64,000 bases of DNA from a methanogenic archaeon ISO4-H5 (GTDB lineage Archaea; Thermoplasmatota; Thermoplasmata; Methanomassiliicoccales; Methanomethylophilaceae), in the NCBI GenBank assembly GCA_001560915.1, contig CP014214.1, positions 1,550,001 through 1,614,000 on the forward strand, read 5' to 3'. Below the pieces are notes generated by a model that ran no database searches, had not been told where the DNA came from, and worked only from the letters and a program-made list of their open reading frames with translations. This document shows, piece by piece, positions 38,779-54,279 of this stretch (its first letter is position 1; each line of letters starts with the position of its first letter). Position numbers and translations under genes: made by a program.

Positions 38779-41700
38779 ATGAGCTTGGAGAACGAATTAT
38801 TCCACGAGCTGTTATTGAAGAGGGATGACCTCAGAAAAAAGAATGCGAATGCCAGCGGAAGGGAGCCGCCCATATGCAGCGACGCCGCCCTTCAGGAGAT
38901 GGCACAGCGTGTACCGACCAAGCTTGAGGATTTCAAAGCCATCGAGGGAATCGGCGACCGTTTCGTGGAACAATACGGACCCGCTTTCCTGGCAATCACC
39001 AAGAAATATGCGGTTACTGCCGCCAAGGGTTCCGCCATCGACCGCCGTCTGGCCCAGACCCTGAGGGAACTGCAGAAGAAGCTCGTCAACATCAGCAAGG
39101 CGAACCGTCTCCTCTTCCAGCCCAAGACCAGCAAGAAGTATTCCTTCGACCCCTGCGTCACCGGCAAGGGCACCGAGGCCCTGGGTCTCATATTCGGAAA
39201 CAAGAGGGTCGTCAATCTGTGCGACTCCAAATCCAAAGAGGACGCCAAGGCATTCAAACGCGTCAACGAGATCATCAGGGAGGTCAGCCGCGACCAGAGG
39301 GAGAAGGGAGCCTTCGACCTCTATCTGGCCTATCCCTTCGTAGAAGGACGCCTGGTCGGCGACGACGATTTCCCCATCCGCGCCCCGCTCGCCCTCTTCC
39401 CCGTGACCCTCGAGAAGGAAGGTACGGCCATCAAGCTCAGGATGGACGACTCCAGGGATGCGGTATTCAACAACACCCTCCTGCTCGCGGCCATGAAGAT
39501 CGGAGGCAGGAACCGTCCCCTGCCCGACAATGTCATCGAGACCTACGACGAGAAGAACTTCATCAACGACCTCAAACAGTTCTACGAGAGCGAGGGAATG
39601 CATCTCGTATTCCCCTCCAAGAAATCCGTTACCGAATTCGTCGAATACAAGGTAGCCGAGTTCCCCGACTATGCCCCCGGGGACCTGCATGTGGTCCACA
39701 ACATCGTGGTCGGGAAATATCCCTCCTACTCCAGCTTCATCCAGAGGGACTTCGACACCCTCCTCTCCGGCAAGGAGATCAACAACAGCCTCGCCGACCT
39801 CATCAAGGACCTCAACAACGAGGATTTCTACTCCGACTACCCCATGCCCCTGTCCGACGAGGACATGAAGTCCCAGGGAGTCATGGCATCGGAGAAGGAC
39901 CTCTATTACATCAACTCGCTCAACAGCGCCCAGGAGAACATCCTGACCGCCATCCAGAAGAAGGACGAACTCGTCGTCCAGGGACCTCCCGGCACCGGTA
40001 AGTCGCAGGTCATCACCGGGCTCATCTCCGCCGCGGTCGCCACCGGCAAGACCGTGCTGATGGTCTCGGAAAAGAAAACGGCACTGGATGTCGTGTACTC
40101 GAGGATGGGTACACTTTCGAAGTTCTGCATGCAGATCGACGACACCGCCGACAAGGACAGCTTCTACAAGCAGCTGTCCACCATGCTCAGCATCCAGCCC
40201 GTGGCCAACAGCGTCAGCCTGGATGCCATATCCGCGGAGATCGACCGCGACATCGGAAAACTCACGCACATCGCATCGGAGGTCTACGACGAAGGCGACT
40301 TCGGGGTCCCTGCCTGCAGCCTGTACGCCATGGACAGGTGGCTGGACCTCAGCGACAAGGTGCAGTACGAGACATACAAGCGTTACAAGGACAACGTCGC
40401 CGCCTCCCTCACCCGCACCGACTTCTCGACGATCAAGGACCTGCACATGAAGTTCGCCAACCCCTCGCTTATCAACAACATCCGCGACTACGAGAACGTC
40501 CTCGACAAATCCCCATGGATGGCCTTCATGAAATCGGACCTCAGCAGCTACGAGCTCAGCGAGATGAAAGCTGACCTGGAGAGGCTAGATGCCGAGGTCA
40601 GGGACCTCAACAGCAAGGGATTCATCTCCAGGCTCTTCTCCAAGGGAAAGGTCACCCGCGACGCCACCGACCTTGCCAACAAATACTTCACCAACTTCAG
40701 CAACAAGACCATCGAGGAGATCAAGAACGACCCGGTCTCCCTCATCGACACCGTTGACGATTACGACGTGTTCTGCGCCAGGTCCACCGTGTACCGCGGC
40801 CTGACCGACCTGGAGAAAGAGTACGGCAGAAGCGTCCTGGACCTCAGCAAGGTGACCAAGAGCTCGGACGCCACCACCAACGACGAGATCTACAGGTTCA
40901 TCCTCAACGACCACCTGCAGAGGTTCGATGCCTCCCACAAGGACATCCTCCAGGAGCTCCACGACTTCGACAGCATCATCAGCAACATCGACCGCAACAT
41001 GGAACAGAAGCGCGCCATGACCCGCAGGCTGATGGAGGGCATCCTCAGCAACGACCTCAGGTATATCACCGAATCCAAGAGGAGGGGCGACATAGCCAGG
41101 ATCGTCGAGAACAAGAGGAAGTGGAGCCTCAACAAGTTCATCAACCGTTACGGATTCGAACTGTTCAAGGGAATCCGCGTATGGCTGCTCACCCCCGAGG
41201 TCGTATCCGACATCATCCCCATGGAGATGGGTCTGTTCGACCTGCTTATCTTCGACGAGGCTTCGCAGATGTACGTCGAGAAGGGTATCCCCTCCATCTA
41301 CCGTGCCAAGAAGGTCGTCATCGCCGGTGACCACAAACAGCTGAGGCCTTCCAGCCTCGGTACCGGAAGGGTCACCTACGACGAGGACGAGGATGACGAG
41401 GAGGAGATGATGAACGGCGCCCTCGAGGAGGAGAGCCTCCTGGATCTCGCCCGTGCAAGGTACGACAGCATCCTGCTCAACTTCCATTACAGGTCCCGTT
41501 ACGAGGAGCTCATCGCCTTCTCCAACTATGCGTTCTACGGCGGCAAGCTGTATGTGTCGCCCAACATCGTCCAGCCCGAGAGGCCTCCCATCGAGGTCAT
41601 AAAAGTGGACGGTACCTGGGTCGACAGGCACAACGAGGCCGAAGCCGACAAGGTCGTGGAGCTCCTCAGGGAGTTCTTCCTGACCAGGCAGAACCGCGAG

Positions 41701-42519
41701 ACCGTCGGTATCATCACCTTCAACGTGTCGCAGCGCGACCTGGTCTACGACAGGATCGAGGAGTACGCCGCCACCGACCCCGCATTCGCCACCGCAGTCT
41801 CGGAGGAGATGAAGCGTTTCGACAACGGAGAGGATGTCGGTCTCTTCGTGAAGAACATCGAGTCCGTGCAGGGTGACGAGAGGGATGTCATCATCTTCTC
41901 CGTGGCCTACGCCAAGAACGAGGACGGCAAGCTCATGCAGAGGTTCGGATGGCTCAACATGCGCGGAGGGGAGAACAGGCTCAACGTCGCCATCTCCCGT
42001 GCCAAGAAGAAGATCTTCATCGTCGATTCCATCGAACCCGAGGACCTCCAGGTCGACGGCCTCAAGAGCGACGGCCCCAGGATCCTCAAGAAATATCTCC
42101 AGTACGCCAAGGCCGTCAGCGACGGAAACACCCCGCTGGCACATTCCATCCTGCAGAGCTTCATCCCCTCCAGGGACGAGTATGCAGACGAGATCGGCAG
42201 CGAGACCCCTGTCATGAACAGGGTGTACACTGCTCTGGTCAGGAAGGGATACACCGTCGAGAAGAACATCGGTATCGGCGGATACACCATCGATCTGGCG
42301 GTCAAGCAGGACAATAGGTTCATCCTAGGTATCGAATGCGACAGCCACATCTACTCGCTCTCGAAGGACACCAGGGAGAGGGATTACCACCGCCAGAAAT
42401 ACCTCGAATCAAGGGGATGGCACATCCACAGGGTATGGACCCCGGGTATGTACAAGAACCCCGAGGCGGAGATCTCCAAGATCGTCACGGCCATCGAGCA
42501 TGCGGAATTGGCTCCCTGA
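38779..42519 (+). CDS. Giant SF1 helicase: HRDC, DUF4011, helicase and C-terminal nuclease
   Basis: A 1246-residue protein. In order: an HRDC-like domain (residues about 25-75, CSDAALQEMAQRVPTKLEDF then GIGDRFVEQYG); a DUF4011-type segment with QKKLVNISKANRLLF; Walker A VVQGPPGTGKSQVI near residue 408; Walker B LIFDEASQMYVEKG; GDHKQLRPSSLG; SVQGDERDVIIFS; NVAISRAKKKIF. The end (residues about 1140-1240) is a Vsr/MTES_1575-like nuclease with IDLAVKQDNRFILGIECD and RDYHRQKYLESRGWHIHRVW. Proteins of this layout often occur in defence or repair contexts, but here it stands alone among ordinary genes. All helicase motifs look intact. Confidence 0.9.
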   Translation: MSLENELFHELLLKRDDLRKKNANASGREPPICSDAALQEMAQRVPTKLEDFKAIEGIGDRFVEQYGPAFLAITKKYAVTAAKGSAIDRRLAQTLRELQKKLVNISKANRLLFQPKTSKKYSFDPCVTGKGTEALGLIFGNKRVVNLCDSKSKEDAKAFKRVNEIIREVSRDQREKGAFDLYLAYPFVEGRLVGDDDFPIRAPLALFPVTLEKEGTAIKLRMDDSRDAVFNNTLLLAAMKIGGRNRPLPDNVIETYDEKNFINDLKQFYESEGMHLVFPSKKSVTEFVEYKVAEFPDYAPGDLHVVHNIVVGKYPSYSSFIQRDFDTLLSGKEINNSLADLIKDLNNEDFYSDYPMPLSDEDMKSQGVMASEKDLYYINSLNSAQENILTAIQKKDELVVQGPPGTGKSQVITGLISAAVATGKTVLMVSEKKTALDVVYSRMGTLSKFCMQIDDTADKDSFYKQLSTMLSIQPVANSVSLDAISAEIDRDIGKLTHIASEVYDEGDFGVPACSLYAMDRWLDLSDKVQYETYKRYKDNVAASLTRTDFSTIKDLHMKFANPSLINNIRDYENVLDKSPWMAFMKSDLSSYELSEMKADLERLDAEVRDLNSKGFISRLFSKGKVTRDATDLANKYFTNFSNKTIEEIKNDPVSLIDTVDDYDVFCARSTVYRGLTDLEKEYGRSVLDLSKVTKSSDATTNDEIYRFILNDHLQRFDASHKDILQELHDFDSIISNIDRNMEQKRAMTRRLMEGILSNDLRYITESKRRGDIARIVENKRKWSLNKFINRYGFELFKGIRVWLLTPEVVSDIIPMEMGLFDLLIFDEASQMYVEKGIPSIYRAKKVVIAGDHKQLRPSSLGTGRVTYDEDEDDEEEMMNGALEEESLLDLARARYDSILLNFHYRSRYEELIAFSNYAFYGGKLYVSPNIVQPERPPIEVIKVDGTWVDRHNEAEADKVVELLREFFLTRQNRETVGIITFNVSQRDLVYDRIEEYAATDPAFATAVSEEMKRFDNGEDVGLFVKNIESVQGDERDVIIFSVAYAKNEDGKLMQRFGWLNMRGGENRLNVAISRAKKKIFIVDSIEPEDLQVDGLKSDGPRILKKYLQYAKAVSDGNTPLAHSILQSFIPSRDEYADEIGSETPVMNRVYTALVRKGYTVEKNIGIGGYTIDLAVKQDNRFILGIECDSHIYSLSKDTRERDYHRQKYLESRGWHIHRVWTPGMYKNPEAEISKIVTAIEHAELAP

Positions 42520-42579
42520 CGATCAATCCCTAAGTTTCCAGAAAATGCGGATATACGGGAGCATCCAGCAAATCTGTGG

Positions 42580-42590
42580 ATTATATATCC
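42580..42590 (+). promoter_or_regulatory. TATA box of the nitrogenase-like operon
   Basis: ATTATATATCC is centred 27 bases before the ATG at 42612. It would put the transcription start at that ATG, so the longer in-frame start at 42576 is rejected and the mRNA is probably leaderless. Confidence 0.6.
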
Positions 42591-42611
42591 ATTGATATAT
42601 TTCCCCCATAT

Positions 42612-44726
42612 ATGTACAAGTTGGCGGTCTACGGAAAAGGGGGTATCGGGAAATCATCGATATCGTCCAACCTATCGTATATCCTTTCAACAAGGGGCCT
42701 GAAGGTTCTCCACGTCGGATGCGACCCCAAACACGATAGCACCAGACTGCTCACGGACGGGATCCCCCAGAGTACGTTCATGGAATCCCTTACCGAAAAA
42801 GGGAAGGATGAAGTCATAGCGAAAGGATCTAACGGCATCTACTGTATGGAATGCGGCGGTGCCGAACCGGGTATCGGATGTGCCGGAAAGGGTATGACCG
42901 CTATGTTCAATTATATCTCGGAACACACACCGGAGGATACGCAGGTAAGGGTCTGCGATGTCCTGGGGGATGTCGTGTGCGGAGGTTTCTCCGTGCCCAT
43001 GCGCAGGAACAACGTGGATGGAATCGTAATAATCGCATCCGAGGAGTTCATGTCCATATATGCCGCCAACAACATCCTCAGAGGTATCGCCAACCTCAAC
43101 GGCACGGCCTGCGTCCTCGGGATGGTGATCAACAGCCGCGACCCTGAGGATTCCGCAAGAATCGAATCGTTCGCCAAAGCGGCGGGGATAAGGATCCTCG
43201 GCATCGTTTCCCGCAGCGCCCTCTTCTCCAAAGCGGAATCCAGCGGCAAGACAGTCAGCGAACTGTTCCCAGATTCTCCCTCTTACAGGGAGCTGGCACA
43301 TATAGCGGATATGATCCAGGATGCAATGGCTGGCAGGCTGGAACCTCTGCCTGCCAAACCTCTCTCCGACCGTGCCATGATGCAGATCGCGGCCGGAAAA
43401 GAAGTGACCGATGACGAACCCCCCAAGGTACGAACATCCTGCAGTTTCGACTCCTACGACAGGGAACGCAACGTCGTATACAGCGGGGACTTCGTCATGC
43501 CGGCATGCACCTCCCACGGTGCGTTCGAGATGCTGGCGAACCTGACCGATGCCGCCATGATTCTTCACGGGGCGAACAACTGCGCGTTCCTGGACGAGTA
43601 TGCCTGGAACAGGGAGACCTATTGGGTCAGTTTCAGTTCCGGGAGATCCAGGAAATGCAACATATACTCGACCGGGCTCGATGAGAAGACGGTATTCACC
43701 GGAGACACCGAGATTCTGAAGAAGACCATACATAAGGCGGCCTCCGACGGGTTCCGCTACATCTTCGTAATACCCACATGCACTTCCGAGATCATCGGGA
43801 CCGACATACGCGGCATAGCGGAGAGCGCCGAGGAAGAAGGCGTTACGATCATACCCGTATCCGCGGACAGAAGTTTCCTTTCCAGTAAATTCGGTTCCTA
43901 CACCGGTTCGGTCCTGGCACTGTCCAGCATGATGGATTGGGGCGCCCCCAGAATCCCTGGCACAGTCTCATTCATCGGCATGGATAACTACCCGAAGAGG
44001 GACGAGAACAGCAGGTACATGGATTCCGTCCTGGCGAATTTCGGACTTAGACGCAACGGCGACTTCATCGCAGTAGAGACTGTTGCCGAGCTGATGAAGG
44101 TCCCCACCTCCCAATACCTCATAGCGATGGGACAGACGTTCTTCACCAAGCGCATAATGGATGTGGTTTCGGACCGTCGCGACATCCTGCACCTGGAGTC
44201 GATGGACGGCATGAAAGGGCTGCGCACCTGGTGCGAGACCCTCGGAAAGGTTACCGGCAGACCCGAGGATGCGGAGAGATTCCTCGAAACGGAGGAGAGG
44301 CTCTACCGTTCCGAGATATCCGAGATAAGAAAGAGGACCGAGGGAAGGAAGGCCATCATCTATACAGGTTCCGACACCGACTCCCTTGACTGGTATGTCG
44401 AGGTCCTCGATGATCTCGGAATCGAGGTACTGGCTATAGTCCTCTGGAAGAAGAGATTCGAGGACCGCTCCAGGAAGAAATGCACCTACTCCGGGATCAA
44501 GAGGATGCCTGATGTGGAGCTATGCCATCTCAAAAGTACGGCCGAATCCCTGGGAGCGGACCTGATAATCTCCGGGGATACAAGGGCCGGACGTGCGGGA
44601 ATCCCCTGGTCGGGGATGGCAGTCCCTTACATCGGACGTATCGGTGCGGTACAATGGGCCAAACGCCTCAGCAGGTGCCTCAGCATCAAACCCGGAGAAG
44701 GGTGGAACATGGAGGTCTCCCAATGA
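42612..44726 (+). CDS. Nitrogenase-like fusion: NifH-type reductase joined to NifD-type component
   Basis: A 704-residue protein. Residues 1-255 are a complete NifH/ChlL/CfbC-like ATPase: YGKGGIGKSS at 7-16, and the 4Fe-4S cysteines C90 (EPGIGCAGKG) and C123 (DVLGDVVCGGF). A roughly 30-residue linker leads to a NifD/E/BchN-like part with C299 (PACTSHGAF), C324 (HGANNCAF) and C390 (IPTCTSEIIGTD). The spacings of 25 and 66 match the P-cluster ligand positions of NifD. STGLDEKTVFTGDTEILKKTI-type sequence confirms the family. NifH-type reductases are normally separate homodimers, so the fusion is unusual. The role is inferred: reduction of a tetrapyrrole, given the chelatase in the operon. An atypical CfbC-CfbD for F430 is the main alternative. 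Confidence 0.9.
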   Translation: MYKLAVYGKGGIGKSSISSNLSYILSTRGLKVLHVGCDPKHDSTRLLTDGIPQSTFMESLTEKGKDEVIAKGSNGIYCMECGGAEPGIGCAGKGMTAMFNYISEHTPEDTQVRVCDVLGDVVCGGFSVPMRRNNVDGIVIIASEEFMSIYAANNILRGIANLNGTACVLGMVINSRDPEDSARIESFAKAAGIRILGIVSRSALFSKAESSGKTVSELFPDSPSYRELAHIADMIQDAMAGRLEPLPAKPLSDRAMMQIAAGKEVTDDEPPKVRTSCSFDSYDRERNVVYSGDFVMPACTSHGAFEMLANLTDAAMILHGANNCAFLDEYAWNRETYWVSFSSGRSRKCNIYSTGLDEKTVFTGDTEILKKTIHKAASDGFRYIFVIPTCTSEIIGTDIRGIAESAEEEGVTIIPVSADRSFLSSKFGSYTGSVLALSSMMDWGAPRIPGTVSFIGMDNYPKRDENSRYMDSVLANFGLRRNGDFIAVETVAELMKVPTSQYLIAMGQTFFTKRIMDVVSDRRDILHLESMDGMKGLRTWCETLGKVTGRPEDAERFLETEERLYRSEISEIRKRTEGRKAIIYTGSDTDSLDWYVEVLDDLGIEVLAIVLWKKRFEDRSRKKCTYSGIKRMPDVELCHLKSTAESLGADLIISGDTRAGRAGIPWSGMAVPYIGRIGAVQWAKRLSRCLSIKPGEGWNMEVSQ

Positions 44727-46024
44727 TGACAGAACCTGACGGATTTCTCGGAGCGGTATTGGCCGCACAGGGGTGCGGACTGAAAGCTATGATCAACGGA
44801 CCCGGAGGGTGCAGATCGCGTACCGTCAACCTCTACCGCGAACTATCTGTCGAATACTCCGGCGAGGAGAGTGGGTGCTGCCGCTCGAAATACATGAGCA
44901 GGCAATCCAACATCCCCTGCACCTATCTGAATTCCGACGACATGATCCTGGGTTCCGGGAACAAGATCTCCGACGGGCTGTCCTCGGTGGCATCGGCCAC
45001 GGATAAAGACATCGTGCTCATCGACACCCTCGGCGCGTCCGTTCAGGTGACCGACATGGAAGCGGCAGTGAAACGTTCGGGCACGGAGGACAGGGTAATA
45101 CTGACCGAGGGGGATCTCTCGGGCCTCTCGCTGGCAGAAGGATTCGACAGGACCGTACGCTCCGTCATGGAACGCACAGGTCTCGCTTCCGGGGAAAGGA
45201 AGAACTCCGTGGCGATTCTGGGATATTCTCTGGCAGACAGTTCCTGGCTATACGGAAAACGTAACATATCTGAGATGCTGGCACTGCTGGGAATCACTGA
45301 TGTTGTATTCGTCGGGTGCGGTTCGGATAAAGAGGCTATCAGAAAGGCCGGAACGTGCTCCGCATCCATATCGATTCATCCCGAGATGTCCTCGCTCACT
45401 GCGGAATACCTCTCGGATATGGGAGTCAGGAACATCACGCCTAGGGTGGGGTCGCCCATCGGATATCCTTCCATACGCTCGTTCGTCACCCAGGTCTCGG
45501 ATGCACTCGGACTTTCTCCGGATACTGCACTGCACGCCGTCGACGAGGAGGAAAAGGCAGTCAAGAGGATACTGAACAACTGTGACAAGGATATCCGCGG
45601 ATTCAGGGGCCAGCTGATGACCCTGGAGGCGATTCCTTCCGATCTCCTGCCGCTGATGGAATGGATGTACAACATGTTCTCGCTGGTTCCGGGATCGGTC
45701 AGATACAGGTTCTCTAAGACCTCACCGTACGATGAGAGGATAACTTCCTTCCTGGACGTGGTCGGCTGTTCCGGGGCCCTGGGTGCCGAAGCGGATCCGC
45801 TCGCCACACATGCTGTATTCTCCGACGGACTCTCCGCGAGACTCTATTCCATGGAGCACCCGCATGCATCCTGTGTCGAAATCGGTATGCCCTATTCCCG
45901 CAAAACCGAACTCACCGACAAGAGCCTGGTCGGATTCGGAGGTGCGAGATACCTCCTCGACAGTCTTGTCAACGGCATCGGCAGATTCAGCTGCGGACAG
46001 CCTACGATGGCAGATTTCAGATAA
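44723..46024 (+). CDS. Nitrogenase-like NifK/BchB/BchZ-type partner subunit
   Basis: About 433 residues; overlaps the fusion gene by 4 bases with GGAGGT upstream. The N-terminus aligns with the NifD/K start: MINGPGGCRSRT gives one canonical cysteine, C30. The first ligand position (near residue 5-6) is Pro/Asp and the third (LIDTLGASVQVTDM, where the D-like half has PTCTSEIIGTD) has no Cys. It therefore offers one ligand against three in the fused D-like half, as in DPOR and COR. Additional cysteines C18, C52, C53 and C66 are present but off the canonical positions. Later blocks (RVGSPIGYPSIRSFV) are NifK/E/N-like. Confidence 0.82.
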   Translation: MMTEPDGFLGAVLAAQGCGLKAMINGPGGCRSRTVNLYRELSVEYSGEESGCCRSKYMSRQSNIPCTYLNSDDMILGSGNKISDGLSSVASATDKDIVLIDTLGASVQVTDMEAAVKRSGTEDRVILTEGDLSGLSLAEGFDRTVRSVMERTGLASGERKNSVAILGYSLADSSWLYGKRNISEMLALLGITDVVFVGCGSDKEAIRKAGTCSASISIHPEMSSLTAEYLSDMGVRNITPRVGSPIGYPSIRSFVTQVSDALGLSPDTALHAVDEEEKAVKRILNNCDKDIRGFRGQLMTLEAIPSDLLPLMEWMYNMFSLVPGSVRYRFSKTSPYDERITSFLDVVGCSGALGAEADPLATHAVFSDGLSARLYSMEHPHASCVEIGMPYSRKTELTDKSLVGFGGARYLLDSLVNGIGRFSCGQPTMADFR

Positions 46025-46054
46025 CCTAAATATTAAAAACCACATGTCTGGCAC

Positions 46055-46810
46055 ATGAAAGGAATCCTCATCTGTGCACATGGTTCGACAGAGTCTGAGA
46101 CAGGCAGTGCGGTAAGAGAACACAGCGCCCGCGTATCGTCGCTGACCGGCTTTCCGGTGTATTACGGATTCAACGCCAGCGAGGAACCTTCCATAACGGA
46201 TGCTTTACACAAGATGTCGGCGGACGGTTTCGATAACGTCATCGTCATCCCCCTTTTCTTCGCACCGGGATTCTTGGCGAACAAAATAGTTCCCAAAGCA
46301 CTGGGCATGGAACCCGAGACCACTGAGGGCGAGGTTACGATAGAAGGGCATACTATCAGAATCCGTATAACCGGTGTGTTCGGCGACCATCCCGGAATGA
46401 AAGACGTCCTTCGGGAGGTGATATCCTCGTGCGGAGCGTCTGCGAAAGACACCGCGGTCATTCTGATCGGACACGGTTCCAAGGACGGAAAGAATTCTGC
46501 TACGGTCAGATACAATGCGTCCTTCGTATCCGAAATGGGTTACGAGGTGTTCTGTGCATACAATGAGATGCAGTCCCCGACGGTTGAGGAAGCCCTGAAG
46601 AGCGCTTTGGGAACAGGATGCAAACAGATAATCGCCATCCCCATGTTCGTCTCTCCCAGCGTCCACAGCACCGAGGAGATCCCCGCGAAACTCGGTATCA
46701 AGGAAGGCAGGAAGACTGCCGTCGGAAATACCGAAGTGATCTACTGTCAGGAGATCGGCATGCATCCCAAGATAGCCGATATCCTGGCCGAACGTGCGGG
46801 AAGCGTCTGA
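46055..46810 (+). CDS. Two-domain CbiX-type metallochelatase
   Basis: A 251-residue protein made of two tandem CbiX-like domains. Each starts with the active-site pattern: LICAHGSTESETG at residue 5 and VILIGHGSKDGKN at about 137. Archaeal CbiX-S/CfbA chelatases are usually single domains of about 130 residues acting as dimers; this one is the duplicated, CbiX-L/SirB-like form. Such enzymes insert cobalt, nickel or iron into sirohydrochlorin. It lies 30 bases after the NifK-like gene on the same strand, so a tetrapyrrole is the likely shared substrate. The metal cannot be read from sequence. Confidence 0.85.
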   Translation: MKGILICAHGSTESETGSAVREHSARVSSLTGFPVYYGFNASEEPSITDALHKMSADGFDNVIVIPLFFAPGFLANKIVPKALGMEPETTEGEVTIEGHTIRIRITGVFGDHPGMKDVLREVISSCGASAKDTAVILIGHGSKDGKNSATVRYNASFVSEMGYEVFCAYNEMQSPTVEEALKSALGTGCKQIIAIPMFVSPSVHSTEEIPAKLGIKEGRKTAVGNTEVIYCQEIGMHPKIADILAERAGSV

Positions 46811-47563
46811 TCAGTAAAGCTTCTTCCTGATCACGATGTGGCATATCGCATAGAACGCTGCCAAGTAAATCAGCATCACGAGGATGGGGATCCACTGATC
46901 CCCAATCCAACCGATGCCAGGGGCATTCGCTGCGGCACGCAGCAGGCTGGTCGTGTGGGATAGCGGTAGCGCCCAGACTATGTATGATGCGGCCTGGGGC
47001 AGAGCATCTACATCGAACAGCGTTCCGCACATGAACGACATGGGCAGAATCAGGACACTGTTGAACATCATCAGCGTGGGAGTGGAGTTGGCGAGAAGAC
47101 CCGCGGCGACTCCCAGCAGCGAGAAGGTGATGCTCGACAGGATCATCATGAGAATCAGCCACGGTGTGATGAAAAGACCATCGGTCAGTAACATACCCAG
47201 ACATAGGATGATTACTCCGCTCATGAGTCCTCTGATGATTCCCATTATACACTTTCCGAAGATTATGGAGGTCGTATGCATGGGGCAGAGGATCAGCTCA
47301 TCGAAACTGGAATGGAACAGCCTCTGGATGAGGATCTTCTGCGATGAGGATGAGAACCCGGAATTCATCGAGGAGATCGCCACGATACCCGGGATCACAT
47401 ATGCAATGTATCCCGAATCCCCGGAACGCATACCGTAACCGAATGCGATCAGGTACAGCAGCGGACCTACCAGCGAGGAGACCATCACCTGGATCGCGTT
47501 GCGCTTCATGTAGCACAGGTCCCCATAGGCGACCCTGAACGTCTCCGACAGGATATTGTGCAT
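46811..47563 (-). CDS. ABC-2 type permease
   Basis: A 250-residue membrane protein with six hydrophobic segments (LVGPLLYLIAFGYGM, GLMSGVIILCLGMLL and LMMFNSVLILPMSFMCGTLF among them), typical of DrrB/NodJ-like exporters. Its ATG overlaps the stop of the ATPase gene, its obvious partner. The stop abuts that of the chelatase gene on the other strand. The substrate is unknown; as the last member of the importer operon it may expel a product or toxic intermediate. Confidence 0.85.
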   Translation of the reverse strand: MHNILSETFRVAYGDLCYMKRNAIQVMVSSLVGPLLYLIAFGYGMRSGDSGYIAYVIPGIVAISSMNSGFSSSSQKILIQRLFHSSFDELILCPMHTTSIIFGKCIMGIIRGLMSGVIILCLGMLLTDGLFITPWLILMMILSSITFSLLGVAAGLLANSTPTLMMFNSVLILPMSFMCGTLFDVDALPQAASYIVWALPLSHTTSLLRAAANAPGIGWIGDQWIPILVMLIYLAAFYAICHIVIRKKLY

Positions 47564-48426
47564 CAGAGCTTCCTCCCGGTCAGTTCGAGGAACACATCCT
47601 CCAGATTGGTCTCGCGGATGCTGATGTTGTTGTTCTCCCCTATCTCGAGAGATGCTTTCTTGGCAGAATCTCTGTCGTCGAAGTACGAGAAGGATTCGTT
47701 ACCCTCGGGGTCGGTGGATACCAGGGTTATGTTCCCAATGCGGGATTTCAGTTCGTCGGGTGTGCCCTCGGCAATCATCTTCCCTTTGTTGATGATGCCG
47801 ACACGGTCGCATAGCGAGTCCGCCTCGAATATGTAGTGTGTGGTGAGGAAAATCGTGGTTCCGCGCTTGTTGATGCTGCGGATCATCTTCCACAGCATGT
47901 TCCTCGACTGGGTGTCCAATCCGGTGGTGGGTTCGTCCATGAAAAGTATGTCTGGGTCATGGATCAGCGAACATACGATGGCCACCCTCTTCTTCCATCC
48001 TCCGGAGAGTTTGGAGACCAGTGTGTCCATACGGCGGTCCAGCTCCATTATGGATGAAAGCTCCGCCATGCGCTGCTTCGCCTCCTTCAGCGAGAGGTTC
48101 TGCATGAGTGCATGATGCAGGATGTTCTCCTTGACCGAGATGTCCTTGTCAAGACTGTTCTGCTGCTGGATCATCCCTATGTTCCGGCGGGCATCTATGA
48201 AACGGGTCTTGGTGTCGAAGCCCTCGATCTTTATGGTTCCCTCGTCGGGGAGATCGACGGTGGTCAGCATACGGACAGTGGTGGTCTTGCCCGCACCGTT
48301 AGGTCCGAGGAATCCGTAGATCTCACCTTTGCGGACGGTTATGTCCAGATGGTCTACGGCAGTGAGATCTCCGAATCTCTTGACGAGACCGAAACCTTCG
48401 ATGATCGGTTCTTCCGTCAATACCAC
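47563..48426 (-). CDS. ABC exporter ATP-binding protein (DrrA-like)
   Basis: A 287-residue ATPase: Walker A GFLGPNGAGKTTTVRML, signature KLSGGWKKRVAIVCSL, Walker B ILFMDEPTTGLD, switch LTTHYIFEAD. The end continues into a DUF4162-like domain. Starts at 48426 (GTG) or 48420 (TTG, overlapping the stop of the preceding permease gene); both give near-identical proteins. It is coupled to permeases on both sides. Confidence 0.88.
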   Translation of the reverse strand: MVLTEEPIIEGFGLVKRFGDLTAVDHLDITVRKGEIYGFLGPNGAGKTTTVRMLTTVDLPDEGTIKIEGFDTKTRFIDARRNIGMIQQQNSLDKDISVKENILHHALMQNLSLKEAKQRMAELSSIMELDRRMDTLVSKLSGGWKKRVAIVCSLIHDPDILFMDEPTTGLDTQSRNMLWKMIRSINKRGTTIFLTTHYIFEADSLCDRVGIINKGKMIAEGTPDELKSRIGNITLVSTDPEGNESFSYFDDRDSAKKASLEIGENNNISIRETNLEDVFLELTGRKL

Positions 48427-49481
48427 ACCTTCCTAGCTCCCTTGATGAGAAGCATGATGAATATCGGACCACCGATAATCGCCGTGATGACTCCCACGTG
48501 CATGGTGTCGGAGGCCATCTTCGCAATCAGATCGCAGATCACCAGCACTGCAGCCCCCACGGCCGCGGAACACGGAAGAAGACGTTTGAGATTGGAACCC
48601 ACCAGGATCCTGGCGATATGCGGAGCGACGAGTCCCATGAATCCGATGGTACCGCAGTAACCGACGATCACTGCGGTCATTATCGCTATGACCACGAGAC
48701 ACACCATGCGCACCAGTCTGGTGCGCACACCCATGGATTTCGCACTGTTCTCACCCGCGGTCATCATCGTGACCTGATGGCTGAGCACCCAAAGCAGGAT
48801 GATACCTATGAGGGTGGAACCCGCGATTATCCAGATATTGTCCCACCTGGCAGATCCGACCGTTCCGACGTTCCACATGTACAGCGATTCCACCGCCTCA
48901 GGGTCCGCATACAGGGTCATGAGCGAGGTGGCTGCCCTGAACACGTACATGACGGCGATTCCTGCCAGGATCATGGTGGTCGGGGTGATCGAACGCCTTT
49001 GAGAAATCGCCAGGATGGCGAATGTCGGGACCAGTGCCAGGATAGATGCGTTGATCGTGAGTCCCAGATTATAATCGTCGACCGGGATGATGGATATCCC
49101 GAGCATGATGTACAATGCCGCACCGAACGATGCTCCCGACGCCACACCGGTCGTGTACGGTTCGGCAAGGGGGTTGCGCAGAAGCGACTGCATCACGACT
49201 CCGGCGACTGCCAGACCCGCACCGGCCACGACTCCGAGTATGGCCCGGGGGACGTACATCTCCCATACGATGAGATTCTCGTAATAGTCGGGATACGTGT
49301 CTCCTCCGAGATGCACAGACAGGATGTCCCACGTTACCGAAGGATTGAGCGTGGAGAATCTGGAACAGAATATCGATACCGCTGCGACGGCCACTGCCAC
49401 CACCGCAAGGGCCGTTGCCAGAATGTATCTGCGCCGGATCCCCGCACGGTATTCGGTCTCCAGAGGGCTGCACTCATCCAT
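48417..49481 (-). CDS. FecCD-family ABC permease 2
   Basis: A 354-residue permease with about ten helices. FecCD/BtuC motifs are visible: ARAILGVVAGAGLAVAGVVM, NPLAEPYTTGVASGASFGA and GTIGFMGLVAPHIARILVG. This family imports iron-siderophores, haem or cobalamin. Its ATG overlaps the stop of the other permease (TGATG). Having two different FecCD genes suggests a heterodimeric channel. Confidence 0.92.
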   Translation of the reverse strand: MDECSPLETEYRAGIRRRYILATALAVVAVAVAAVSIFCSRFSTLNPSVTWDILSVHLGGDTYPDYYENLIVWEMYVPRAILGVVAGAGLAVAGVVMQSLLRNPLAEPYTTGVASGASFGAALYIMLGISIIPVDDYNLGLTINASILALVPTFAILAISQRRSITPTTMILAGIAVMYVFRAATSLMTLYADPEAVESLYMWNVGTVGSARWDNIWIIAGSTLIGIILLWVLSHQVTMMTAGENSAKSMGVRTRLVRMVCLVVIAIMTAVIVGYCGTIGFMGLVAPHIARILVGSNLKRLLPCSAAVGAAVLVICDLIAKMASDTMHVGVITAIIGGPIFIMLLIKGARKVWY

Positions 49482-50590
49482 CAGAAACCCTCTCCGTACT
49501 TCTGCTTCCTGCGGACGATCATGTAGAGGAACAGCGGCGCACCGATGATGGACACGATAAGTCCGACACGCAGCTCCATCTCCGTGTAACCGTACATGTT
49601 CGGAAGCCTGGATAACAGGTCAGCCAACAGCATGAATGCCGCGCCGGACACCATGGAGGCGGGGATAAGATAGCGGTTATCGCCGCCGGTGACCATGCGC
49701 ACGATGTGCGGAGCCACCAATCCGACGAAACCGATGATGCCCACGAAACTCACCAGAGCGGCCACGGTGACGGACACCACTATCATGCATATCGTACGGA
49801 AGGTATCGACGTCCAGTCCCAGACTGGAGGCACTGTCATCGCCTAGTGCCAGCAGGTTGAGTTTATTGCTCACGAAGATTAGGAAAGCACCGCATACCGC
49901 GGTCACGATGAACGGTATCCTGCAGTCGTTCCAGGATACACCGTTGAAGTTACCGATCTGCCACAGATAAGCCTCTTTCAGGGTCTCTGCATCGGTTGTT
50001 ACCATTATCGCGGTCTCCAGACCGCTGAATATGTAGGATAAAGCAACACCCACCAGAATGGTCGTAGCCGGACTCATGTTGACGAAACGCGAGAGGAGGA
50101 TGATGACCACGGCAGGAATCATTCCGCCCAGGAAGGCATTGGATACCAGACCGATAGACGAATTGAACATGGAAAACGAATATCCGACGACGATGGCTGC
50201 CACTGCTCCGAAACACGCTCCGTCGGAGATACCGACTGTGTAAGGATCGGCGAGCGGGTTCTTCATAAGAGCCTGCATGGTGACTCCGCAGGCAGCGAGT
50301 CCCATACCGACGATGATCGCCATGCAGATACGCGGGAGACGGAAGTTCCACAGATTGTAATCCGCCACCCATGATTCGAGATCGGTGGTACGGTCGTAGG
50401 TCTTTCCGGCCAGGTGATCGATTATGTATCTGTAGCTTTCGACGAACCCTACACCCACATCATTCTGGGACAGGGATACGCCTGCGATTATGATTACAAC
50501 ACAGATGATCCCGAAAATCAGGAGCAGCTTACGGAAGGTATAACGCCCGTACGCCAGCTCTATCTCGCTCTTCTGCTCGTCACTGACCAT
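49481..50590 (-). CDS. FecCD-family ABC permease 1
   Basis: A 369-residue permease of the same family: LPRICMAIIVGMGLAACGVT, NPLADPYTVGISDGACFGA and GIIGFVGLVAPHIVRMVTGG. It overlaps the ATPase gene by about 11 bases and the second permease by 1 base. Together with permease 2 it should form the membrane channel of the importer. The substrate class is metal chelate or corrinoid. Confidence 0.92.
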   Translation of the reverse strand: MVSDEQKSEIELAYGRYTFRKLLLIFGIICVVIIIAGVSLSQNDVGVGFVESYRYIIDHLAGKTYDRTTDLESWVADYNLWNFRLPRICMAIIVGMGLAACGVTMQALMKNPLADPYTVGISDGACFGAVAAIVVGYSFSMFNSSIGLVSNAFLGGMIPAVVIILLSRFVNMSPATTILVGVALSYIFSGLETAIMVTTDAETLKEAYLWQIGNFNGVSWNDCRIPFIVTAVCGAFLIFVSNKLNLLALGDDSASSLGLDVDTFRTICMIVVSVTVAALVSFVGIIGFVGLVAPHIVRMVTGGDNRYLIPASMVSGAAFMLLADLLSRLPNMYGYTEMELRVGLIVSIIGAPLFLYMIVRRKQKYGEGF

Positions 50591-51461
50591 CGGAAACCTC
50601 TTTGGATATCTCGGGAACGGATGTGCTGGAACATGCGTCTTCGCAATGAACGGAAGCTTCGATCTCCCCCTCGCATCCGCAGTTCTCGAACGATGGGTCC
50701 TTGATGATCATGAACGGACGTCCCTCGGACTGGATGACCTCGGATTCCACGCCGTATACCTCGCGGATATTCTCGGCGGTTATGATCTCCTCGGGAGTCC
50801 CGACGGCGAACACCTTCCCTTTGGAAAGCATGATGATATTGTCGGAATACTTGGCCGCCAGATTCAGATCGTGACTTATCATTACCACCATGACGCCCTT
50901 GCGTACGGACAGGGTCTTGAGAAGACGCGTGACCTCCATCTGGTGTCTTATGTCGAGATTCGCCGTTGGTTCGTCCAGAAGGAGGATCTGGGGTTCCTGG
51001 GCCAGTCCCCTGGCGAGCATGACACGCTGATGCTGTCCTGCTGAAAGCTCGTTGAAGTTGCGCATAGCCAGCGGCTTGATGTCCATGAGCTCCATGGCCT
51101 CTTCGACGACCACCATGTCATCGTGAAGGGACTTCCATTTCCTGTGCGGATTACGTCCCATGAGGATCGTATCCACCACTGTCATCGGGAACGTGTCTGT
51201 GGCAGCATAGGGGACATATCCCACTACCTTGGCCAGTTCCTTGGCGCCGTATTCCGTCACGGGTTTTTCGTCGACCAGAACAGTACCCTTGGTGGGTTGG
51301 AGGATCCGGTCGATACAGTGTATCAGAGTGGATTTCCCGACACCGTTGGGTCCGATGATGGAGACCAGCTGCGGCTTCCTGATACTGATATTGATCCCAT
51401 TGAGAACGATGGCCTCCTGGGAGTAGGAATACTCCAGGTCCTGAATGTCCACTTGCACCAT
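50580..51461 (-). CDS. FecE/BtuD-type importer ATPase with cysteine-rich tail
   Basis: About 293 residues. Walker A SIIGPNGVGKSTLIHC, signature ELSAGQHQRVMLARGL, Walker B ILLLDEPTANLD and switch MISHDLNL are all present. Beyond the normal end is a roughly 35-residue tail with C261, C263, H272, C273 and C277 (ENCGCEGE then ASVHCEDAC), unusual for this family and suited to binding a metal or cluster. The ATG at 51461 begins the conserved sequence, 43 bases after the stop of the binding-protein gene. Longer in-frame starts exist but run into that gene. Confidence 0.88.
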   Translation of the reverse strand: MVQVDIQDLEYSYSQEAIVLNGINISIRKPQLVSIIGPNGVGKSTLIHCIDRILQPTKGTVLVDEKPVTEYGAKELAKVVGYVPYAATDTFPMTVVDTILMGRNPHRKWKSLHDDMVVVEEAMELMDIKPLAMRNFNELSAGQHQRVMLARGLAQEPQILLLDEPTANLDIRHQMEVTRLLKTLSVRKGVMVVMISHDLNLAAKYSDNIIMLSKGKVFAVGTPEEIITAENIREVYGVESEVIQSEGRPFMIIKDPSFENCGCEGEIEASVHCEDACSSTSVPEISKEVSDGQ

Positions 51462-51504
51462 GTTATCAAAATGGAAGAAAGGGGATTTCTCCCCCGGTTT
51501 GTAC

Positions 51505-53649
51505 TCACTTGGCTCCGTTGCACTTGCACTTGGCAATGCAGGACTGGTCTCCGGCGGAAACGGTGATGTTCACAACCTCTGCAGTCGTATCATCGACACG
51601 CTTGAGGACGACGGTCACCTTTCCGTCACACTCGTCGAAACTGACGACCTTCACGATGGAGTCGTTGCTGCTGGTGACGGCCAGGTCATCAATGTTGGCT
51701 GCTTCGGGTGCGACAGTGAAGACGAACTCGTAATCGTAGGATGAGGTGCCCCTCATGGTCTTGTAGTCCTGGACCACACCTTTCGATACGGTCTGGCCTT
51801 CCGTCCAGGTGATTCCGGTAACAGCTTTGTCACTGACAGTAACGACACATGTGTCCGAGACGTCGCCCACGGATGCAGTAATGGTTGCGATACCAATGGC
51901 CTTGGCGATGACGACCCCATCTCCTACCGCCACGATACTGTCGTCGCTGCTGGTCAGAGAGAAGCTGTCGATGCTTGCGTTGGAAGGAGTGATGGTGTAT
52001 GTCAGGGTGGCTTTGCCATCTTTTCCGAGAGATACTGTATCTTTGGAGAGCTGGATCTCGGTGGCCTTTACATCCTGGACGGTGACGGTACAGGTATCGG
52101 TGGCATCACCGATCGAAATAGTGATGGTGGCGATACCGGCAGCCAGTGCGGTGATCTTTCCGAGCGAGACCGTGGCAACAGAGGTGTTGTCAGAGGTCCA
52201 GATAGGAGTGGTGTCGGTAGCACCGTCGTTAATGGTGTATGTAAGCTGGGCACTGTTACTGAGTCCGAGAGTCAGAGATTCCTCGGAAAGGGTCACGGAT
52301 TTAGCGGGCACGTATCCGGATCCCTCCTTGAATGACCACATGACGGTGTGATCGGCGGCCTTCCAATCCTTCAGATCAGTGAATGAATCGACGAAATCCT
52401 GGAAGACGGTTGCTCCGTATCCTTTGCCGACACTGTCGGTGTACATGACCTCGGCCATGTATGCCAGCCTGGCGGGCAGAGGGATGAGTCCGTTGAGGAG
52501 GTAGTAGCCTCCGTTCTTGAACATAGTGGTCTCGGAGAAGTAAGCAGAATACTCCTTGAGATTGTCCTTGATAGTCTCCGCATCCATATCGAGGCTGTGA
52601 CCTCCCATGGACTTGAAGTGGATCATGTAATTGGCATTGTATTTGGACTCGTACAGCCAGGTGTCTCCGTTGCTGGGGTTGAACTTCTTGGTGCTGGTGG
52701 TCCAGTCAGCAATGTTCTTACCGCCGGCGAGGACAGTGGCCGCATAGTAGTCGGAGGGAGTTCCGCTGACGGAATTACTCATAACGACACTGAGAACGGT
52801 GGCGGTACCGAACTTGCTGCCGGTCTTGTTCTTGATGGTGTCGGTGACATCCTCGACCAGATCGATGTAGTTGGCAGCCTTGTCGGACTTCTGAACGAGG
52901 ATTCCGATGGTGGCCACGGACTGGAGACTGGTGGTTGCGCTGTCAAAGTTGAACTGGAGGACCTTTGCTCCGATCGAATCATAGAACGACCTGGCGGCAT
53001 CTCCGTTGTAACCGCCCATTCCGCTCTCCTCGAGGATGGCGGCCTGGAACGTGGTCTTAGACAGATCGGAGATGTCTTGCTCAGTGGCATTGGAGGTCAG
53101 GCGGGGGATCTTTCCGGAAAATCCATCCGCATTGGTGACAGACATGAGCTCTTTGTCGATATCGTTGAGGTAGGTATCGTTGGTAGCAAGACAGACGATG
53201 TTGTCCTGCAGATCGAGGACATTGGCAACGGTACGTCCGTTTACCTGTCCGAAAAAGAAGATACTCTTCAGGGGGAAGGGCACTGTGACGACATTCTTCA
53301 GGGCATCGATGACCTTGACAGTGGCATCGGCAGGCTGGGTTCCGTCCACAAGGGACTTGACAAAGTCATAGTCGGCCTGTTCGACGGTTCCGTTGTTGTC
53401 AGCGTCTGCCAGGGGATAATCCTTCAGGAGGCTGGGGGTGTCCATCACCTTTTTGATGATATTCAAATCCGCGTCGCTGAATTTGGTATCTCCGTCGGCA
53501 TTACCGTAGACGAGACCGTATGAACCGGCCACATCGGCGGCTTTTTCGTTACTGCTGCCGTTGTTATTGGAGAGGACCACAAAGGCTCCTGCTCCTGCGG
53601 CAACCACTACGATTGCCACGACGGCGATTATCAGGGATTTTGATGACAT
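51505..53649 (-). CDS. Surface substrate-binding protein with dockerin-like and BIG2 domains
   Basis: A 714-residue exported protein, first gene of the importer operon. An N-terminal anchor helix (SLIIAVVAIVVVAAGAGAFV) without lipobox is followed by two EF-hand/dockerin-like repeats (GNADGDTKFSDADLNII and ADADNNGTVEQADYDFV). Next comes a periplasmic-binding-protein region (about 90-450; YDSIGAKVLQFNF, GILVQKSDKAANYI), then two BIG2 Ig-like domains and a third related one (from about 465). The end has three close cysteines, SCIAKCKCNG. A TATA-like TTTATAAAC at 53676-53684 fits the ATG at 53649. The likely ligand is a metal chelate or tetrapyrrole. Confidence 0.82.
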   Translation of the reverse strand: MSSKSLIIAVVAIVVVAAGAGAFVVLSNNNGSSNEKAADVAGSYGLVYGNADGDTKFSDADLNIIKKVMDTPSLLKDYPLADADNNGTVEQADYDFVKSLVDGTQPADATVKVIDALKNVVTVPFPLKSIFFFGQVNGRTVANVLDLQDNIVCLATNDTYLNDIDKELMSVTNADGFSGKIPRLTSNATEQDISDLSKTTFQAAILEESGMGGYNGDAARSFYDSIGAKVLQFNFDSATTSLQSVATIGILVQKSDKAANYIDLVEDVTDTIKNKTGSKFGTATVLSVVMSNSVSGTPSDYYAATVLAGGKNIADWTTSTKKFNPSNGDTWLYESKYNANYMIHFKSMGGHSLDMDAETIKDNLKEYSAYFSETTMFKNGGYYLLNGLIPLPARLAYMAEVMYTDSVGKGYGATVFQDFVDSFTDLKDWKAADHTVMWSFKEGSGYVPAKSVTLSEESLTLGLSNSAQLTYTINDGATDTTPIWTSDNTSVATVSLGKITALAAGIATITISIGDATDTCTVTVQDVKATEIQLSKDTVSLGKDGKATLTYTITPSNASIDSFSLTSSDDSIVAVGDGVVIAKAIGIATITASVGDVSDTCVVTVSDKAVTGITWTEGQTVSKGVVQDYKTMRGTSSYDYEFVFTVAPEAANIDDLAVTSSNDSIVKVVSFDECDGKVTVVLKRVDDTTAEVVNITVSAGDQSCIAKCKCNGAK

Positions 53650-53675
53650 AATATCCAACTGACAATACATCCAAT

Positions 53676-53743
53676 AGTTTATAAATTTAGGCATCACTAA
53701 AAATAACTATTACGGCTGTTTAAAAGTTTTAGTTATGCCTAAA
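53676..53743 (-). promoter_or_regulatory. TATA box and two inverted DtxR-like operators
   Basis: TTTAGGCATCACTAAA at 53686-53701 and TTTAGTTATGCCTAAA at 53728-53743 are inverted copies differing at one base. Each is an imperfect palindrome TTTAG-N6-CTAAA, close to the TTAGG...CCTAA boxes of archaeal DtxR-type metal-dependent repressors. The first touches the TATA-like sequence (53676-53688), so binding would block transcription of the importer operon. Metal repression is inferred. Confidence 0.6.
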
Positions 53744-54063
53744 TTATAAATCCAATACCGAAACAATATTATTTTCAAAAACATCAATTGATTTCGGTGG
53801 AAAAAGGGGAAAAATATCGCCTTCGAAAGGTAGCTGCACTCTGATCATCGAGATGGAAAATATGCACTATACTTGCATCATCCATCAACAAAAATGTATT
53901 TTTTTGTAATTTTATTTAAATATGAAATCGTCCGAATTTTGGCAAATAAGGTATTTTTATGTTATGATTCCCGTAAGAACGGACCGTCCTCCAGGAACCA
54001 GAATAGGAGATTTGACCTCGCTCCAGGGGTCAAAACTTTATAGGCGCTGCCAGATATTTAGGT
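53744..54063. other. AT-rich intergenic region with CopZ promoter
   Basis: No gene is visible. AAACTTTATAG at 54034-54044 is a TATA-like box about 24 bases before the copZ ATG, again predicting a leaderless mRNA. The remainder is A/T-rich without a clear repeat. Confidence 0.45.
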
Positions 54064-54279
54064 ATGGCAAAACTTAAACTCAAGATTGAAGGAATGGCCT
54101 GTGAAAAGTGCGTCGCAAAGGTAGAGGAGGCTCTGAAGAACAAGGGCGTCTCCGACCTCCACGTCAAGATAGGCTCCGCCTCATGCACCTACGATGAGTC
54201 CTCGGTCTCCGAGGAACAGCTCGTCGAGGCCGTGGTGGACGCAGGGTTCCCCGCCAAGGTCAAGAAGGGCCTGTTCTGA
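54064..54279 (+). CDS. copZ: Heavy-metal-associated domain protein, CopZ-like copper chaperone
   Basis: A 71-residue HMA domain: [17 protein letters not shown] with the metal-binding CxxC, and the end [16 protein letters not shown]. It carries Cu(I) to the ATPase encoded one base downstream. Size and fold are typical. Confidence 0.9.

Follow-up and report, generated by a model that had tools for sequence, protein, structure and literature searches.

Two inverted, almost identical 16-bp sites in front of an FecCD-type importer operon of the methanogenic archaeon ISO4-H5 are, we conclude with good confidence, operators of the only DtxR-family regulator in this genome, which when loaded with metal would repress the importer together with the ABC-2 exporter genes behind it; the second site may serve a divergent promoter. 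The sites lie in a window of 64,000 nt, by which we mean the whole stretch of DNA that was analyzed (positions 1550001-1614000 of the genome, which is a single contig 1,937,883 bp long). Since both sites match those of the cell's only DtxR-type repressor, plentiful iron very probably shuts the importer off; the part played by iron, and repression itself, are inferred.

Table 1. Coordinates of the sites, boxes and genes discussed (window positions unless marked as genome positions)
Feature	Position	Strand	Remarks
Operator A	53686..53701	-	plus-strand reading TTTAGGCATCACTAAA, minus-strand reading TTTAGTGATGCCTAAA; lies just ahead of the TATA-like box of the importer
Operator B	53728..53743	+	reads TTTAGTTATGCCTAAA, reverse complement TTTAGGCATAACTAAA; inverted copy of A
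TATA-like box of the importer operon, TTTATAAA	53678..53685	-	abuts operator A; offset as at dtxR and feo promoters of relatives
Mirror-image TATA-like box, TTATAAAT	53744..53751	+	abuts operator B; possible divergent promoter
Weak operator-like site	54057..54072	+	covers the start codon of copZ; 15.5 bits, relatives-trained matrix
Substrate-binding protein, 714 aa, C-terminal Big_2 domains	51505..53649	-	residues 1-448 model like siderophore/iron binding proteins
Importer ATPase, FecE/BtuD/heme type	50580..51536	-	family matches
FecCD-family permease 1	49481..50590	-	PF01032 3.9e-82
FecCD-family permease 2	48417..49481	-	PF01032 3.7e-81
ABC-2 exporter ATPase	47563..48426	-	probably same operon; its relatives bear DtxR operators elsewhere
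ABC-2 exporter permease	46811..47563	-	PF01061 4.1e-21
Exact TTAGGYATNWCTAA	1255043 (genome)		before dtxR
Exact TTAGGYATNWCTAA	1299002 (genome)		upstream of the operon that holds feoA, feoB and the gene for a 348-aa protein
Exact TTAGGYATNWCTAA	405193 (genome)		ABC-2 ATPase/cobI intergenic region

The paired sites and their motif

An earlier note on this DNA had described the sites as inverted to each other and one base apart, which the sequence bears out: the plus-strand reading of operator A and the reverse complement of operator B have a single base different. The inverted arms stretch to 19 nt (53684-53702 and 53727-53745) with 95% complementarity and a spacing of 24 nt, and the operators are 42 bp apart from center to center. 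At up to one mismatch, the pattern TTTAG-N6-CTAAA has four matches in the window against 0.47 expected, the two perfect ones being the A/B pair, and in 100 shuffled versions of the window the count never reached four. The likeness to DtxR/IdeR boxes proposed for this pattern holds, but the motif itself is better given as the 14-bp TTAGG-N4-CCTAA half-site, from which each window site departs by one mismatched base.

Comparison of the window sites with those at dtxR, feo and 405192 yielded TTAGGYATNWCTAA, which occurs exactly at five places in the genome (reversed control, 0): the window pair and the three listed in Table 1. The genome scan that had been proposed as a check thus finds the exact motif shared by dtxR itself, the feo operon, the ABC-2/cobI region and the window pair. 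Looser searches gave no enrichment over reversed controls: with one mismatch allowed, TTTAG-N6-CTAAA was found at 29 places versus 64 for its control and TTAGG-N4-CCTAA at 20 versus 81, so that placement and conservation, and not the genome-wide count, carry the case. Likewise, TTAGGYATNWCTAA at up to two mismatches on both strands had 57 matches against 134, and we therefore put weight on the best matches only; since TTAGGYATNWCTAA was drawn from the genome's own sites, the independent tests described below (a palindrome scan and a matrix trained on relatives) weigh more. The TTTAG-N6-CTAAA places cluster as pairs or triples at feo (1295218-1295287 and 1298937/1299001), in the window and at 1715846/1715873.

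Nine of the 20 one-mismatch TTAGG-N4-CCTAA places are at dtxR, feo, a deleted feo2 operon, the ABC-2 exporter or the window importer, and the other 11 lie near genes of no evident iron role, among them 271436, upstream of a gene for ribosomal protein S3Ae, 759550, upstream of one resembling CAAX proteases, and 727998, upstream of one judged by eye to encode a rubredoxin. Random occurrence near unrelated genes had been named at the outset as grounds for rejecting the motif; the exact TTAGGYATNWCTAA places are those at dtxR, feo, the ABC-2/cobI region and the window pair, and at one mismatch 11 of 20 lack an evident iron role. Seventeen of the 20 fall outside called ORFs, with the ATG at 53649 taken as the importer start, although an AT-rich motif favors AT-rich gaps in any case.

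The site pair at 1715846/1715873 (1715846-1715888; L020:6847-6889) consists of two perfect operators that face no iron gene. The same neighborhood in genome G006 (L279) has an aldehyde dehydrogenase (ALDH) gene, tRNA-Val and two perfect operators 27 bp apart, followed by genes for a FeoA-like protein, FeoA and FeoB2 and then by a zinc-ribbon gene, tRNA-Val and tRNA-Gly; in G008, which likewise retains the operon, both halves of the feo2 neighborhood are found on separate contigs (L281 and L278), whose continuity we assumed. The ISO4-H5 genome keeps the flanks and both operators and has lost the feo genes, and the simplest reading of this comparison is that the feo2 (feoA-feoB2) operon was deleted in its lineage and its operators left over. 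A small-RNA gene at this place, considered as another candidate, was ruled out by the synteny. At the retained feo locus (G000:C1:1295031-1297666), two small Cys-rich proteins follow feoB, with a FeoB_associated match just below the cut-off, and the second of them is accompanied by a separate group of three operator-like sites.

Sites in relatives, the regulator and its metal

In 60 other genomes, exact TTAGGYATNWCTAA has 18 matches against 8 for the control; four adjoin dtxR orthologues, five are upstream of feoB orthologues, and another four neighbor a FecCD importer or a binding protein (L156, L157, L158 and L162). We also performed an unbiased palindrome scan, in which every 5-base word and its reverse complement were combined at gaps of 0 to 12 (1024 words by 13 gaps) over 200 bp upstream of dtxR and 1500 bp upstream of feoB, at the 30 best-matching dtxR and 30 best-matching feoB loci from the 56 and 61 genomes with a match; two of the 30 feoB loci were dropped as partial genes, and the counts take in the ISO4-H5 genome and its nearest relative, G008. 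With one mismatch between arms, TTAGG-N4-CCTAA came first at both genes, being present at 24 of the 30 dtxR loci and 24 of the 28 feoB loci. When the arms had to be perfect, it led at dtxR with 8 loci (the next word had 4) and took second place at feoB with 13, after the overlapping TTTAG-N6-CTAAA (15; next, 4). The runners-up were mostly shifted forms of the same sites, and some GC-rich words reached 15 at feoB.

A weight matrix built from 67 sites at other loci only, with those of ISO4-H5 and G008 left out (consensus AATTTAGGTATACCTAAATT), ranked operator B second (22.8 bits) and operator A eighth (21.8 bits) among 282,675 positions of the ISO4-H5 genome, a ranking biased because most of these stretches had been chosen for motif matches. 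The other top-scoring sites were 1298938 and 1299002 (feo), 1255043 (dtxR), 1715847/1715874, 405193, 759550 and 271436. Within the window, where the ranking is unbiased, the pair comes first and second, the next site scores 15.5 bits, and 100 window shuffles never exceeded 17.1. The absence of an equivalent site at the nitrogenase-like operon, which the earlier note had remarked on, is confirmed by a best nearby match of only 14.1 bits (46016). That the sites are palindromes arisen by chance in AT-rich DNA between genes, or belong to an unrelated regulator, would accord with the 35% GC of the region and the lack of enrichment of the mismatched motif, but the shuffles, the relatives-trained matrix and the conserved placement at dtxR and feoB have already largely refuted this reading, which we regard as very improbable.

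In the set of 61 genomes, the perfect form TTTAGG-N4-CCTAAA was found at 60 places (control, 8), being present in 25 genomes and absent from 36. Outside ISO4-H5, the perfect sites number 58 and fall at 51 places, each of which was checked for nearby ORFs and compared by BLAST with ISO4-H5 proteins; Pfam was run on 30 neighboring proteins from 26 of them, and some assignments to feo or dtxR were made by distance to feoB and dtxR matches. The most frequent partner was feo (11 places), followed by dtxR (3), Peripla_BP_2 binding proteins, fusions of a nicotianamine-synthase-like (NAS) domain to FeoA, and flavodoxins (2 each), and ABC-2 ATPase, ZIP, Mntp and a ZT_dimer fragment (1 each), giving a metal or iron link at 24 of the 51 places; DUF3793 genes (4) and other ABC genes (2) account for part of the remainder, and 21 places are unrelated, unassigned or inside ORFs. 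The operators are hence common to the regulator gene and iron-uptake genes and conserved in relatives at dtxR and feoB.

The location of DUF3793 genes directly behind perfect operators in four genomes (L223, L235, L238 and L239) and of flavodoxins likewise in two (L219 and L260) suggests that DUF3793 is part of an iron-starvation response. The NAS-FeoA fusions (L261:607-1542, minus strand; L262:1580-2497, plus strand), from two genomes of one genus, are also directly behind a perfect operator; a FeoB-like frame comes next, and in L262 a methyltransferase lies on the opposite side. The fusions possibly mark an iron-controlled metallophore pathway.

The DtxR-family regulator on which the proposal depends, a protein of 223 aa, is encoded by the one gene that PF01325 and PF02742 each detect in the genome (1254354-1255025, minus strand), with helix-turn-helix and dimerization domains over the cut-off (PF01325, E 4.5e-21; PF02742, E 6.5e-20), FeoA as a third domain, and a best match to a solved DtxR-family structure at E 1.8e-18; a near-identical operator lies 17 bp upstream of it. 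In an alignment of 15 of the 30 orthologues fetched, H79, E83, H98, E105 and H106 are invariant (15 of 15), position 10 is always Asp, and position 102 is Cys in 7, Ser in 4 and His in 4. The residues at these positions serve as metal ligands in IdeR-type proteins, and Asp10 is of the MntR type. The ISO4-H5 protein, with Asp10 and His102, does not have the Met10 and Cys102 that characterize the primary metal site of iron-type IdeR; passages of PMC10317159 describe the ligand roles and say that Met10 and Cys102 favor iron in IdeR. By sequence the metal could therefore also be manganese, whereas the sharing of operator sites with feo favors iron.

A manganese sensor of the MntR kind, with the importer and feo repressed by Mn(II) instead of, or besides, Fe(II), would fit Asp10 in all 15 orthologues, the variable position 102, the best NCBIfam match of the regulator (the MntR model, below its cut-off), and the perfect sites by an Mntp gene (L264) and a ZIP gene (L243). 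We consider it unlikely, given the prevalence of feo among the partners, the flavodoxins, NAS-FeoA fusions and Peripla_BP_2 proteins that also number among them, and the invariance of the other metal ligands. In favor of the proposed regulon, a paper on nickel uptake (PMC10617489) reports FeoB, FeoA and DtxR raised together in Methanococcus voltae on FeS2.

The importer, its promoter and the second operator

The operon has the components of an FecCD-type importer, namely FecCD permeases, a FecE-type ATPase and a class III binding protein. The binding part of this protein had no Pfam match; a model of its first 448 residues (mean pLDDT 83.1, pTM 0.84) best matched YiuA (E 2e-14, 16% identity), FepB-like proteins, CeuE and HtsA, with Ni-His, molybdate, heme and B12 binders also among the fold matches. 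The importer ATPase stayed below every cut-off among the best 25 of its 191 matches, as did the permeases (16 of 16 for each). We take the system for a probable importer of iron chelates, although proteins of this fold also bind those other ligands. The binding protein also has an Asp/Asn-rich stretch before its binding domain, and it has eight matches in its own genome, several of them to the N-terminal or Big_2 part only.

The single binding protein gave no match in a search of the named genomes, whereas an alignment recovered 32 loci (475,821 bp). Three of these (L174, L175 and L176) hold close importer orthologues, and an operator is found upstream in L176 only, about 40 bp ahead of the gene for the binding protein, and this operator is the sole match at up to one mismatch in the 32 loci. 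There is none upstream of the importer in L174 or L175, the latter having an 18.7-bit site about 8.8 kb off, and none at that threshold in the other 29 loci, whose binding proteins are more distant. The binding-protein regions of L150 (the same locus as L174), L151 to L154, L164 and L165 and the paralogous importers of ISO4-H5 (L148 and L149) likewise have no operator. In L156, L157 and L158, however, an operator does precede another FecCD importer or its binding protein. The ABC-2 exporter looks like a recurrent member of the regulon, because relatives of its ATPase have an operator in front at 405193 in the same genome and in L156 and L256.

Next to the operon, window positions 38779-46810 encode a NifH-NifD-like fusion (716 aa), a NifK-like protein (500 aa), CfbA over its NCBIfam cut-off, and what we take to be a CobN-like protein. 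The NifD-like part reaches 23.4 of the 268.4 bits of the CfbD model, and owing to this poor score the cluster may not be the standard F430 pathway.

The TATA box said to abut one site is indeed there, adjoining operator A. Across 48 dtxR and feo promoters, TATA-like words (eight hexamers of our choosing) peak 10 to 19 bp past the operator center, with 34 occurrences versus 0 to 11 in the other 10-bp bins; operator A with TTTATAAA has this layout, and operator B with TTATAAAT has it in mirror image. On the computed arrangement of the sites, their motif, the regulator gene, the sites shared with dtxR and feo, and the TATA offset, we infer binding and the direction of control as follows. Each site would act as a 14-bp half-box, of the size bound by one dimer of an IdeR-type protein. 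Loaded with metal, most likely ferrous iron, DtxR would bind just ahead of the TATA box, on the position recognized by TFB, and block TBP/TFB or the polymerase, so that neither the FecCD-type importer nor the ABC-2 exporter behind it is expressed; when iron is short it would leave, and the importer, feoAB and dtxR would be expressed. Operator B sits likewise on the back-to-back promoter-like sequence of the plus strand.

The suggestion that the pair controls the importer operon is supported for operator A, at the importer's box, but operator B need not serve the importer; since each site abuts its own outward TATA-like box, it may belong to a divergent promoter. That both sites serve the importer alone, as two DtxR dimers that cooperate or loop the DNA, with the plus-strand box due to chance, is a credible if tentative alternative: 42 bp is about four helical turns and would put the dimers on the same face, relatives have paired operators (e.g., G058, G044 and G045), feo promoters carry a second operator about 27 bp away, and the plus strand beyond operator B runs for more than 300 bp without a clear gene. 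It is opposed by the layout of several feo promoters in relatives, where two operators flank one TATA box, unlike the one outward box per site seen here, and by the mirror symmetry itself, an inverted self-match that spans 73 bp including both boxes (75% identity, E 3.8e-4).

A hidden gene or small RNA on the plus strand was sought and dropped. The longest ORF before copZ is 56 aa, in a region of 35% GC; plus-strand frames past operator B had no protein homologue besides themselves among the frames of relatives' loci; and 53650-54075 had no Rfam match near a gathering score, hence no credible RNA family. Against 61 genomes, besides the self and inverted matches, this interval gave 26 short pieces (33 bp or less, E 0.003 to 0.1), seven of which cover an operator. 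The closest relatives lack the window importer operon, which leaves such a gene some room. The copZ gene at 54064 has an apparent TATA-like sequence of its own near 54037, and G006 has a one-mismatch operator site at its copZ start (L163:3318-3331). We think it doubtful, though worth stating, that the two inverted sites form a bidirectional promoter, back to back and repressed by iron, whose plus-strand arm makes a transcript of roughly 150 to 300 nt, either a regulatory RNA or a copZ-copA leader; in that case one DtxR switch would link the import of iron with either copper handling or a small RNA of this archaeon.

Comparison with known systems

If operators A and B are, as we conclude, sites of DtxR, they provide a concrete iron regulon, open to test, for a host-associated methanogen lineage; they connect an importer of the FecCD type, so far unassigned, and with it an ABC-2 exporter, to the iron status of the cell and so narrow their substrates; and they offer a clean operator-TATA geometry for studying how an archaeal DtxR blocks transcription. 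An archaeal parallel is MDR1 of Archaeoglobus fulgidus, which like the regulator proposed here is a repressor of the DtxR type that depends on metal and acts at the promoter of an ABC importer; MDR1 has several operators near the transcription start, whereas the window has one operator abutting each TATA-like box. Archaeal DtxR-family regulons were reportedly the subject of work by Leyn and Rodionov in 2015, which PMC11349517 and PMC10317159 cite. In the open-access papers covered, mostly by title and abstract, we found no iron regulon described for this methanogen lineage, and the main text of PMC8351635 makes no mention of DtxR. The likeness extends to other archaeal DtxR-family regulators of metal homeostasis, among them that of Haloferax, whose siderophore ABC operons are described in sections of PMC11349517 as preceded by a regulator signal.

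Actinobacterial IdeR/DtxR operators at iron-uptake promoters have the same CCTAA repeats and spacing, in the form of a 14-bp half-site, TTAGGNNNNCCTAA, that according to excerpts of PMC8464063 is bound by one IdeR dimer; the window sites differ from it by one mismatch each. The classical 19-bp IdeR box (TTAGGTTAGSCTAACCTAA) has four CCTAA repeats for two dimers, with outer repeats 9 bp apart, whereas the arms of the window sites are 4 bp apart and there are no inner repeats, for which reason we expect one dimer per site. The actinobacterial operators lie at a -10 box or start site, and those of the window abut an archaeal TATA-like box. Set beside the half-sites described in those excerpts (PMC8464063), the window sites are ordinary in kind, as 14-bp sites of the IdeR type, and new in place.
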